Below, in pieces: positions 37,129 through 41,078 of a stretch of 64,000 nt of DNA. The position numbers and the translations under genes are program-made. The stretch is from Brachyspira suanatina (lineage in GTDB: Bacteria > Spirochaetota > Brachyspiria > Brachyspirales > Brachyspiraceae), in NCBI RefSeq assembly GCF_001049755.1, contig NZ_CVLB01000001.1, positions 682,001-746,000 of the forward strand. The letters run 5' to 3'. How positions within the stretch are numbered: the stretch's first letter is position 1; each line of letters starts with the position of its first letter. Under the pieces are notes generated by a model. That model had not been told where the DNA came from, ran no database searches, and was given only the letters and a program-made list of their open reading frames with translations.

Positions 37129-37165
37129 TTGACTTATTTTTTAATAATACATATACTAGGTATAT
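37129..37165 (+). promoter_or_regulatory. Promoter with palindromic operator, likely CstR site
   Basis: TTGACT (37129-37134), 17-base spacer, TATACT (37152-37157). A perfect palindrome ATATAC-TAG-GTATAT (37151-37165) covers the -10. CsoR-family operators commonly have ATAC...GTAT half-sites, which this has. It precedes the CoA-disulfide reductase gene, and a CstR-type regulator is encoded two kilobases downstream. Confidence 0.65.
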
Positions 37166-37200: not shown

Positions 37201-38889
37201 ATGAAAAAAATATTAATAGTAGGCGGTGTTGCAGGCGGAGCTTCTGCAGCTGCAAGACTTAGAAGATTAAATGAAGAAGATAAAATAATAATGTTTGAAA
37301 AAGGTCCTCATGTATCTTTCTCTAATTGTTCTCTTCCTTATCATGTAGGAGGACTTATACCTAATGAAGAAACTTTACTTTTAATGAATCCTGAAAAGTT
37401 TTTAAAACAGTTTAATGTAGATGCAAGAGTTAATAGCGAAGTTGTTGCAATAGATAGAGAAAATAAAGAGGTTGTAGTTGTATCTGAAGGCAGAGAGTAT
37501 AGAGAAAGCTATGATAAACTTATACTTTCAATGGGTGCTAAACCTATAGTACCACCTATTAAAGGAATTGAAAAAGTTAATGTATTTACTGTAAGAAATG
37601 TTGTTGATATAAGCAAAATACATAATTTCCTTAATGGAAAACCAAATGCTAAAGTGTCTGTTATAGGCGGCGGATTTATAGGTATTGAGATGGCTGAGAA
37701 TTTGAAAAAAGTAGGATATGATGTAACTATAATAGAAGCATTGCCTCAAATAATGAAGCCTTTTGACTATGATATGGTTCAAATTCTTCATAGAGAAATT
37801 ATGGACAATGGAGTTAATTTAATAGTTAATGATAAAGTTGACAGCTTCGATACAAATACAGTTATTTTAGCTTCAGGTAAAAAAATAGAGGCTGATGCTG
37901 TTATTCTTGCTATAGGTGTAGCTCCTGAAACTGATATTGCTGTTAAAGCTGGTATAGAATTAGGAAAAACTAAAGCTATAAAAGTAGATTCTACTTACAG
38001 AACTAATGATAAAGATATTTATGCAGTGGGAGATGCTATAGAGGTATATAGTCCTTTATTCAATGATTATTACAGACTTCCTTTAGCTGGACCTGCTCAA
38101 AAACAGGCTAGGGCAGTTGCTGATCATATCAATGGAAGAACAGTTGATAATAGAGGATTTATAAGTTCATCAGTTATTAAAGTATTCGGATATAATGGAG
38201 CTTCTACAGGACTTTCTGAAGGATTCATTAAAGCTATGAATTTGAATATAGATTATGATACTGTAGAGATTATTCCTTTTGACGGCGTATCAATTATGCC
38301 TAATGCTAGATTAATGCATTTCAAACTTATATATGAAGTACCTACAGGTAAAATATTAGGGGCTCAGGCTATAGGTAAAGGAAATGTTGATAAGAGAATA
38401 GATGTTATAGCTACTATCATAAAATTCGGCGGCACTATAGATGATCTTAAAGATTTAGAATTATGCTATGCTCCTTCATTCGGTACTGCTAAAGATGTAG
38501 TTAATTTTGCGGGTTATGTTGCTTCCAATTTAAGAAATGGAGATTATAAGCAAGTTCATTATAGTCAAGTCAGAGAATTGGTAGAAAAAGATGCTTATTT
38601 CCTAGATGTAAGAATGCCTGAAGATTTTGCAGTAGGACATTTAGAAAAAGCTGTTAATATACCTCTTGGAGCTTTAAGAAGCAGATATAATGAAATACCT
38701 AAAGACAGAACAGTATATATAACTTGTAAAACAGGCTTAACAAGCTATACAGCATGCAAAATACTTCAAAATATCGGATTCAATAATGTTGTTAATGTTT
38801 CAGGCGGATTTATCGGATTATCACAATATGAATATTTTAATGATAAAAGCACTGGAAGAAAACCTATATTAACAGGATATTTCGGATAA
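37201..38889 (+). CDS. CoA-disulfide reductase-rhodanese fusion (persulfide reductase)
   Basis: FAD- and pyridine-nucleotide-dependent reductase that reduces CoA disulfide or CoA/protein persulfides, fused to a sulfurtransferase. 562 aa. FAD-binding GGVAGGASAAARLRRL (8-23), active cysteine Cys43 in SNCSLPYHVGG, NAD-binding VIGGGFIGIEMAENL, and a second FAD site IYAVGDAIEV. The C-terminal rhodanese domain (about 450-562) has catalytic Cys509 in CKTGLTS. This is the layout of bacterial CoADR-Rhd enzymes. Ribosome binding site GGGAG. It has its own promoter with an operator-like palindrome and its own terminator at 38915, so it forms a single unit next to its presumed regulator gene. Confidence 0.93.
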   Translation: MKKILIVGGVAGGASAAARLRRLNEEDKIIMFEKGPHVSFSNCSLPYHVGGLIPNEETLLLMNPEKFLKQFNVDARVNSEVVAIDRENKEVVVVSEGREYRESYDKLILSMGAKPIVPPIKGIEKVNVFTVRNVVDISKIHNFLNGKPNAKVSVIGGGFIGIEMAENLKKVGYDVTIIEALPQIMKPFDYDMVQILHREIMDNGVNLIVNDKVDSFDTNTVILASGKKIEADAVILAIGVAPETDIAVKAGIELGKTKAIKVDSTYRTNDKDIYAVGDAIEVYSPLFNDYYRLPLAGPAQKQARAVADHINGRTVDNRGFISSSVIKVFGYNGASTGLSEGFIKAMNLNIDYDTVEIIPFDGVSIMPNARLMHFKLIYEVPTGKILGAQAIGKGNVDKRIDVIATIIKFGGTIDDLKDLELCYAPSFGTAKDVVNFAGYVASNLRNGDYKQVHYSQVRELVEKDAYFLDVRMPEDFAVGHLEKAVNIPLGALRSRYNEIPKDRTVYITCKTGLTSYTACKILQNIGFNNVVNVSGGFIGLSQYEYFNDKSTGRKPILTGYFG

Positions 38890-38914: not shown

Positions 38915-38947
38915 AAAAGAGCCGTTTTTTATGAAATGGCTCTTTTT
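38915..38947 (+). terminator. Intrinsic terminator
   Basis: Nine-base stem AAAAGAGCC/GGCTCTTTT (38915-38923, 38938-38946), 14-base loop, T-rich tail. Confidence 0.8.
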
Positions 38948-39064: not shown

Positions 39065-39670
39065 ATGTTAATAGAAAATGATTTAAAAATATTATCTCCT
39101 TCAGAGGCTGATGAAATTATCAATAATACAGATAATATAGTAATATTGGATGTCAGAACGGAGATGGAACATAATTATGAGGGTATGATTGAAGATTCTA
39201 TTTCTATGGATTTCCTTAAGCCAAGAGTGTTTAAAAGAGAAATATCTAAATTAGACAAAGAAGCTCCATATTTACTATATTGTTCCATTGGTAAGTTAAG
39301 TATAAAAGCAGCGGAATATATGAAAGAAGAGGGATTTAAGAATCTCTATATATTAGAAGGCGGATTGAAGGCTTGGAATAAACATTTTGGAGATAATAAC
39401 AAAGTTTCTAAATTTGACAGAGAAGAGGCTGTTGAGAGAAGAAAAAGACTTATTATAAGATTAAACAGAATCGAAGGTCAGATTAAAGGAATGAAAAAAA
39501 TGCTTGCCAAAGGAGAATATTGCGGTGATATACTTAATCAGTCTTTAGCTGTTAAAGCTGCTATGGGAAGTGTTAATCAGGAAATTATGGAAGTATTTTT
39601 GAATACATGTATGATTTCACCTAAAGAAAAAGAAGATTTCTTCAGATATATGAGAAAACTTATCAAGTAA
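39065..39670 (+). CDS. Rhodanese-CstR fusion: probable persulfide-sensing repressor
   Basis: 201 aa, two domains. Residues 1-110 are a rhodanese sulfurtransferase with DVRTEMEH and catalytic Cys73 in LLYCSIGKLS. Residues 121-201 are a CsoR/CstR (DUF156) DNA-binding domain: RRKRLIIRLNRIEGQIKGM, then Cys153 in GEYCGDIL and Cys182 in FLNTCM. The copper ligand histidine of CsoR, expected four residues before the second Cys, is absent, and the Cys-Cys spacing of 29 equals that of the persulfide sensor CstR (31 and 60). This makes a sulfur sensor likely, with sulfur possibly passed from the rhodanese Cys73. It follows the CoA-disulfide reductase gene, separated by a terminator. No palindrome like the one at 37151 is seen in its own leader. 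Confidence 0.85.
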   Translation: MLIENDLKILSPSEADEIINNTDNIVILDVRTEMEHNYEGMIEDSISMDFLKPRVFKREISKLDKEAPYLLYCSIGKLSIKAAEYMKEEGFKNLYILEGGLKAWNKHFGDNNKVSKFDREEAVERRKRLIIRLNRIEGQIKGMKKMLAKGEYCGDILNQSLAVKAAMGSVNQEIMEVFLNTCMISPKEKEDFFRYMRKLIK

Positions 39671-39679
39671 TTATTTTTT

Positions 39680-39706
39680 AAGCAAGGGATAATCCCTTGC
39701 TTTTAT
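39680..39706. terminator. Bidirectional intrinsic terminator
   Basis: Perfect 10-base stem AAGCAAGGGA/TCCCTTGCTT (39680-39689, 39693-39702), 3-base loop, T-rich tail on one side and A-rich on the other. Serves the convergent regulator and pyrFE genes. Confidence 0.85.
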
Positions 39707-39722: not shown

Positions 39723-41078
39723 TTATTTACCCCAAGCATCTGGATTTTTATTCCATTCCAAAGCCTTAGATAATTCTTCTTCTGTTATGTATTTTTCATC
39801 TTTAGCTATTTCCATAAGAGATGAGAAATTAGAAAGAGATGAGAATTTAATTCCTGCTTCTTCAAAGTTTTTATATGCTTTTTCAAATTCATAAGTAAAT
39901 ATTGATATAATTTCAAGTCCTATAGCCCCTTCAGCTTTAGCTGCTTCAAATGCCTTTATAGAACTTCCGCCTGTAGAAATTAAATCTTCTATTAATATTA
40001 ATTTTTTACCGTTACATTCAGCACCTTCAATTTGTTTTCCGCGTCCATGTTCTTTTTTCTCTGCTCTTATATAGCATAAAGGTTTATTAAGTTCATAAGC
40101 TATGAAAGAAGCCCAAGGTATTCCAGCTGTGGCAGTACCAGCTATAACATCAAAGTCTTTATCTCTCAAAATGCTCACAAAGGCATCAACTATAACCTTT
40201 CTAGCCTCAGGGAATCCTATTACATATCTATTATCGCAGTATATAGGGCTTTTTATTCCTGATACAAATGTGAAAGGCTCTTTAACATTAAGTTTAACTG
40301 CTTTAGTTTCTAATAAAGCACCTGCTATTAATTTTGATTTTGCTTTTTTATTGTTCTCCATACCTTCAGCAATTTCTTCAACAATCATTTTGCAGGCTTT
40401 TACTCTGTCTTCATTTCTTGTAATAGGTCTTCCAACAACAAGATAATCACATCCATTTTCAATAGCTTCTTTAGGAGTCATAACTCTTTCCTGATCATCA
40501 GTGCTTGCCCATTTAGGTCTTACACCCGGACAAATTGTTCTGAAATTCTCTCCGCATTCTCTTTTTATTACTGCTGCTTCTTTAGGAGAGCATACAACAC
40601 CGTCAAGTCCGGATTCTTTTCCTAATTTAGCCCAATTAACTGCCAAATCTGTAAGAGGTAAATTAGAGCTGAACATATTTTTTACATCATTTTCTGAGAG
40701 GCTTGTTAATATTGTTACGCCTATTATTAAATTATCTTTATTGAGTTTTTTTATCTCTTGTACAGTTTTTTCCATCATCTTTTTACCGCCGCTTGTATGT
40801 ACATTGAACATAAATACATTCTGTTTAGCAGCGAATAATGAAGCCATAGCTGTAGTATTAGGTATATCATGGAATTTTAAGTCTAAAAATACTTTTTTAT
40901 TTTTACTAGCCAAATATTCTATTATTTCGCCTTTAGTGTATAAAAAGAGCTCTAGTCCTACTTTATAAAATACAGCCTCATCTCCAAGCTCATCTATAAG
41001 TTTGGTAGCCTCTCCCATAGAATTAAAATCTAATGCTATAATTAATCTTTCTTTTGGGTTTTCAGTTAATTTTGTCAT
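39723..41078 (-). CDS. pyrFE: Bifunctional UMP synthase (OMP decarboxylase-orotate phosphoribosyltransferase fusion)
   Basis: Joins the last two steps of UMP synthesis in one 451-aa chain. N-terminal half (about 1-235): OMP decarboxylase with the catalytic Asp-x-Lys-x-x-Asp in DLKFHDIPNT (Asp66, Lys68, Asp71) and IGVTIL. C-terminal half (about 245-451): orotate phosphoribosyltransferase with FTFVSGIKSPIYCDNR, GTATAGIP and the PRPP-binding LILIEDLISTGGSS (360-373). The decarboxylase comes first, the reverse of the animal enzyme and the same as the kinetoplastid fusion. It is the last gene of the pyrK-pyrD-pyrFE run, 70 bases after pyrD. Confidence 0.94.
   Translation of the reverse strand: MTKLTENPKERLIIALDFNSMGEATKLIDELGDEAVFYKVGLELFLYTKGEIIEYLASKNKKVFLDLKFHDIPNTTAMASLFAAKQNVFMFNVHTSGGKKMMEKTVQEIKKLNKDNLIIGVTILTSLSENDVKNMFSSNLPLTDLAVNWAKLGKESGLDGVVCSPKEAAVIKRECGENFRTICPGVRPKWASTDDQERVMTPKEAIENGCDYLVVGRPITRNEDRVKACKMIVEEIAEGMENNKKAKSKLIAGALLETKAVKLNVKEPFTFVSGIKSPIYCDNRYVIGFPEARKVIVDAFVSILRDKDFDVIAGTATAGIPWASFIAYELNKPLCYIRAEKKEHGRGKQIEGAECNGKKLILIEDLISTGGSSIKAFEAAKAEGAIGLEIISIFTYEFEKAYKNFEEAGIKFSSLSNFSSLMEIAKDEKYITEEELSKALEWNKNPDAWGK

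Follow-up and report, generated by a model that had tools for sequence, protein, structure and literature searches.

The 64,000-nucleotide stretch of the Brachyspira suanatina genome analyzed here (the window) encodes a rhodanese fused to a DUF156 domain, and this protein is probably a two-domain repressor of coaDR that senses reactive (sulfane) sulfur and has a built-in sulfurtransferase. Rhodaneses move sulfane sulfur, and Brachyspira are gut spirochetes. Support at the level of sequence consists of the fusion itself, the invariant Cys73, Cys153, and Cys182, the lost copper-binding His, and a conserved predicted operator over the coaDR -10 box (Table 1). The presence of the fusion in Brachyspira and some Fusobacteria, beside a conserved predicted control site for a gene of persulfide detoxification, points to a sensor that may take up its signal by itself.

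Domain architecture of the fusion protein

The first-pass annotation had placed a rhodanese and a DUF156 regulator on one 201-residue chain, and this arrangement held: the open reading frame is intact and matches two Pfam families above cutoff. Residues 11 to 106 match Rhodanese (PF00581; E value 1.8e-15, 57.7 bits), and residues 126 to 190 match Trns_repr_metal/DUF156 (PF02583; E value 5.4e-20, 72 bits against a cutoff of 22.8). The C-terminal domain belongs to the DUF156/CsoR-RcnR superfamily, and the N-terminal domain is a predicted single-domain rhodanese with a Cys in its active-site loop. That residue, Cys73, is the rhodanese cysteine named earlier; it lies in the predicted loop and is invariant in the 16 fusions that we aligned. 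The only other cysteines in the protein are Cys153 and Cys182.

An AlphaFold model (16 sequences; mean pLDDT 82, pTM 0.54), in which the relative orientation of the domains is uncertain, comprises a rhodanese fold, a flexible linker at about residues 111 to 115, and three CsoR helices predicted at residues 119 to 149, 153 to 181, and 186 to 200. Cys153 and Cys182 cap opposite ends of the second DUF156 helix in this model. In a fold search, numerous rhodaneses matched the model, among them GlpE and the corresponding domains of CoADR-RHD and CoAPR.

Table 1. Features of the fusion gene, the coaDR gene, and the coaDR promoter, in window coordinates
Feature	Position	Strand	Basis or remark
-35 box TTGACT of the coaDR promoter	37129..37134	+	17 bp to -10 box TATACT; sigma-70-like
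13-bp palindrome TATACTAGGTATA (TATAC-TAG-GTATA), predicted operator	37152..37164	+	first six bases are the -10 box TATACT
CoADR-RHD (CoA-disulfide/persulfide reductase with C-terminal rhodanese), probable target gene	37201..38889	+	best match TIGR03385, below its equivalog cutoff
Intrinsic-terminator-like hairpin between coaDR and fusion gene	38915..38946	+	sequence
Rhodanese-DUF156 fusion protein, 201 aa (Cys73; Cys153, Phe178, Cys182)	39065..39670	+	uninterrupted ORF
Rhodanese domain, aa 11-106, active-site loop C73-SIGKLS	39095..39382	+	Pfam, fold match, alignment
Flexible interdomain linker, about aa 109-118	39389..39418	+	pLDDT <50 at aa 111-115
DUF156/CsoR-family domain, aa 126-190	39440..39634	+	Pfam, alignment, predicted helices
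Intrinsic-terminator-like hairpin 3' of fusion gene	39680..39702	+	sequence

Distribution and conservation of the fusion

The same two-domain architecture, which the first-pass annotation had proposed to look for in other genomes, was found in two phyla. Of 26 Brachyspira genomes, 22 carry the uninterrupted frame (74 to 100% identity), and among 98 Fusobacteriota genomes, 12 encode a two-domain fusion (52 to 80% identity to the Fusobacterium member). An assembly artefact, raised earlier as a possible origin of the fusion, is therefore ruled out. Cys73, Cys153, Cys182, and Phe178 are invariant in the aligned fusions from both phyla. Three Brachyspira genomes lack the fusion. A 23rd genome with the gene, that of Brachyspira pilosicoli T010 (G001; L031/L048), is missing one A from an A run at the rhodanese-DUF156 junction, which splits the frame. 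This change is confined to the one strain and may reflect either an error in sequencing or genuine slippage at the homopolymer.

No fusion was found in 396 sampled Bacteroidota, where the best matches cover the rhodanese only, or on the plasmids and viral contigs searched. We also scanned 84,980 species genomes with patterns close to the Brachyspira sequence, a search that would miss distant fusions. A literature search of partial coverage returned no description of a rhodanese-DUF156 fusion.

Two Ilyobacter genomes (G104 and G105; L080, L081, and L083) encode a stand-alone rhodanese, not followed by a DUF156 domain, that shares 46 to 48% identity with the fused one. Its neighborhood resembles that of the fusion in genome G116, and this lone rhodanese may represent either a pre-fusion state or loss of the repressor domain. 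The persistence of a DUF156-less rhodanese, up to 48% identical, fits a reading in which the fusion is bifunctional: the rhodanese would have an independent housekeeping or detoxifying role, fusion would only couple expression or dock the protein to CoADR-RHD for specificity, and the sensor would react directly with small persulfides, as would a stand-alone CstR. CstR indeed functions without a fused rhodanese (PMC9405070, PMC9918477). However, both the fusion and Cys73 have been retained between two phyla, down to about 47% identity, and we consider a merely bifunctional protein unlikely.

An unusual CsoR-family architecture was also seen in about ten Fusobacteriota genomes (G082 to G093, e.g., G090:C1:2624324-2624824). 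Here two tandem DUF156 domains, one a strong and one a weak match, lie in a single frame of about 180 to 200 residues.

The sensor site and its kinship to CsoR and CstR

Copper-sensing CsoR proteins have a Cys-His-Cys fingerprint. We compared 76 distinct DUF156 domains from Spirochaetota and Fusobacteriota with PDB references at these positions. Phe178 of the fusion aligns with the metal-ligand His of CsoR, and C-F-C was found in 20 of 20 fused domains (the frameshifted T010 copy included). Of the 56 unfused domains in these phyla, 55 have C-H-C and one has C-E-C. Among the unfused fusobacterial repressors nearest to the fusions, several adjoin CPx-type P-ATPase genes, the context expected for copper CsoRs. 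The fused domain has therefore lost the copper ligand. Both CstR references (Sp and Sa) have C-N-C; the Sa sequence agrees with the published C31/C60 numbering.

The regulator had been called CstR-type on the basis of paired sensor cysteines 29 residues apart and the absence of the CsoR His. Both features are present (Cys153 and Cys182, with Phe178 at the His position), and in this sense the label stands. The spacing itself, which had been described as that of CstR, is not a mark of CstR, since copper CsoRs share it: Gt CsoR (PDB 4m1p) aligns without gaps over both cysteines with an identical 29-residue spacing. We thus discarded spacing as a criterion that could separate CstR from CsoR. As a statement of kinship, the label is not supported. 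The Asn of CstR is Phe in every fusion, giving C-F-C rather than C-N-C, and both similarity and the tree point to the fusobacterial CsoR type.

The fused DUF156 domain scores 42.9 bits against Gt CsoR and 30.4 bits against Sp CstR, with identities of 35 to 45% to Gt CsoR, 40 to 44% to Ilyobacter L128, and 21 to 34% to CstR. The fusions form one clade in the tree (100/99), inside a group otherwise made up of fusobacterial CsoRs (93/99). A clade uniting the fusions with CstR was not rejected by an AU test (p = 0.30) on about 87 columns with long branches.

The greater similarity to Gt CsoR, together with the fact that the fusion is the only DUF156 protein of the B. suanatina genome, is consistent with an ordinary CsoR-kind sensor of copper or another metal to which a rhodanese is joined by accident. 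The fused domains, however, have Phe in place of the metal-ligand His without exception, and the neighbors of the fusion are sulfur genes, not copper ATPases. We rejected identity as a copper CsoR on the fingerprint, and we regard a metal sensor with an incidental rhodanese as highly improbable.

Gene context

The neighboring genes support a sulfur-stress context. CoADR-RHD adjoins the fusion in most Brachyspira and in 10 of the 12 fusion-bearing Fusobacteriota. In these Fusobacteriota the fusion is the last gene of a coaDR-yeeE(-permease)-fusion cluster in some cases, and in others it lies divergently beside coaDR-yeeE. The YeeE/YedE sulfur transporters near the Fusobacteriota fusions match PF04143. 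CoADR is missing too in the three Brachyspira that lack the fusion. B. pilosicoli-type genomes carry coaDR away from the fusion gene; one genome of this type (G025) has the fusion and no CoADR match, and in G116 no CoADR lies next to the fusion.

A terminator-like hairpin lies between coaDR and the fusion gene in Brachyspira, and another follows the fusion gene, so the two genes probably form separate transcripts. On the minus strand of the window (39723-41078), OMP decarboxylase and phosphoribosyltransferase domains share one chain, a pyrF-pyrE type fusion, and dihydroorotate dehydrogenase genes come after it.

A conserved predicted operator at the coaDR promoter

A palindrome noted earlier near position 37151 was located precisely as the 13-mer TATACTAGGTATA over the coaDR -10 box (Table 1). 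The exact 13-mer occupies the coaDR -10 box in Brachyspira with an adjacent coaDR and, in the other phylum, in Fusobacterium L044. The remaining Fusobacteriota have TATACTnGnnnnnGGTA or a close variant at the equivalent position, and a related predicted operator is found upstream of coaDR in 10 of 10 fusion-bearing Fusobacteriota with adjacent CoADR. B. pilosicoli-type genomes have a diverged site, TATACTATGTACA, at the equivalent coaDR position.

The pattern TTGAC-N15-19-TATACTnGnnnnnGGTA occurs in 8 of the 98 Fusobacteriota genomes searched, always at coaDR and in fusion carriers only; no fusion-less genome among the 98 has it. Random placement would put all eight in fusion carriers with a chance of about 3e-9, but because the pattern was derived from those same promoters, what carries information is that the 86 other Fusobacteriota genomes lack it. 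The Ilyobacter-group genomes G104 and G105, which have a 65%-identical CoADR and no fusion, have no such operator site at coaDR.

Because the first six bases of TATACTAGGTATA are the -10 box, part of its conservation is expected from promoter function, and the block could be a strong promoter element only, with the fusion regulating something else. Conservation nevertheless spans the entire 13-mer and more: ATACATATACTAGGTATAT is invariant in 15 distinct Brachyspira coaDR upstreams, while the flanks vary. The Fusobacteriota pattern likewise follows the fusion carriers alone (8 of 8 among 98 genomes), which argues against a promoter element by itself, and we judge that reading very unlikely. 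coaDR is the likely target gene of the predicted repressor.

In Brachyspira, the sequence that precedes the fusion gene shows no evident operator. Two further exact copies of TATACTAGGTATA in the B. suanatina genome appear, judged from their flanks, to lie inside coding sequence and were set aside as targets. A second TTGAC-N18-TATACTAGGTATA in genome G002 lies about 35 bp before a methyl-accepting chemotaxis (MCP) gene (L192 1093-1128; G002:C180:3592-3627), and genome G018 has a site before a 2-oxoacid oxidoreductase gene. Both sites, which have a promoter-like context, are absent from relatives and were taken as chance occurrences.

Proposed mechanism

The fusion and its predicted regulatory setting are well supported by the comparative evidence. 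In the mechanism that we propose, the reduced CsoR-fold domain, as a tetramer, would occupy the operator and block RNA polymerase. When persulfides such as CoA persulfide, or thiosulfate-derived sulfane sulfur, build up, Cys73 of the rhodanese would take the sulfur and hand it to one of the sensor cysteines (Cys153 or Cys182). As in CstR, the protomers would then become linked by a di- to polysulfide bridge, and the DNA would be released. CoADR-RHD would be made, along with YeeE/YedE transporters in Fusobacteriota, and CoA persulfide would be reduced to CoA and H2S. Loading of Cys73 and transfer to Cys153/Cys182 would give the sensor donor selectivity and speed.

The steps of this scheme differ in strength. 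CoAPR, an enzyme that reduces CoA persulfide, is under CstR repression in Enterococcus faecalis, and intracellular persulfidation of this CstR affects both of its cysteines (PMC9405070). A CstR-like response is the most economical reading of the fusion because its likely target encodes the same enzyme class as CoAPR, and we hold a response of the putative repressor to persulfide to be quite likely. For in-cis delivery of sulfur from the rhodanese to the sensor dithiol, we put the chances at about even.

The rhodanese might instead act as an off-switch in a persulfide-responsive coaDR repressor, stripping sulfur from the sensor cysteines or clearing local sulfane sulfur and so resetting repression. 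A separate, free rhodanese modulates SqrR sensing in Rhodobacter, and its deletion shifts SqrR-dependent transcription in the direction opposite to deletion of SQR (PMC9995734); feeding a sensor is thus not the only effect that a rhodanese can have, and damping is another. The sequence is compatible with either direction of transfer. Resetting, however, would need a donor or reductant, and none is evident in cis, so we view an off-switch as rather unlikely. Returning to a rhodanese that feeds the sensor, we advance more tentatively, at somewhat less than even confidence, a fuller account in which a self-loading persulfide sensor probably derived from CsoR, independently of CstR, lost its metal site when His was replaced by Phe, and gained a rhodanese. 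The rhodanese would choose the sulfur donor, which may be CoA persulfide, and pass sulfur in cis to the sensor dithiol.

These proposals touch on two questions about persulfide sensors: how they discriminate between sulfane sulfur and other oxidants, and whether they are fed by enzymes. A natural fusion of sulfur carrier and sensor, with a short conserved predicted operator and one clear candidate target, makes the question directly testable. If true, the proposals would mean that a persulfide-type sensor arose from a copper-sensor scaffold, and that Brachyspira and Fusobacteria have a sulfur-stress regulon, for which we found no describing paper.

Comparison with known systems

CstR proteins, among them those of Staphylococcus aureus, Streptococcus pneumoniae (7mq1-7mq3), and Enterococcus faecalis and YrkD of Bacillus licheniformis, resemble the fusion as CsoR-fold repressors with two cysteines 29 residues apart and no metal-binding His. 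CstR controls sulfane-sulfur detoxification, and the same is predicted for the fusion from its gene context and the conserved candidate operator at coaDR. The two differ in that CstR consists of one domain, about 86 residues long, whereas the fusion has an added N-terminal rhodanese. They also differ in fingerprint (C-N-C versus C-F-C) and are only 21 to 34% identical, and a clade common to both is neither favored nor rejected.

CsoR (Geobacillus 4m1p and the unfused fusobacterial CsoRs beside CPx-ATPases) is closest in sequence and has the same fold and Cys spacing. It has a Cu(I)-ligand His, in contrast to the Phe178, sulfur-gene context, and fused rhodanese of the fusion. CoADR-RHD/CoA persulfide reductase (Bacillus anthracis 3icr and E. 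faecalis CoAPR 8a56), the kind of enzyme encoded by the likely target, also pairs a rhodanese with a partner domain but is an enzyme rather than a regulator.

The ArsR-family persulfide sensors SqrR/BigR, whose rhodaneses are separate or PDO-fused, follow the same logic in that one regulon contains both a dithiol repressor and a rhodanese (PMC9995734). Their DNA-binding fold is unrelated to that of the fusion, and their rhodanese is off the sensor chain. The new element relative to CstR-like sensing, as predicted from the domain assignments, is a rhodanese on the sensor chain itself.
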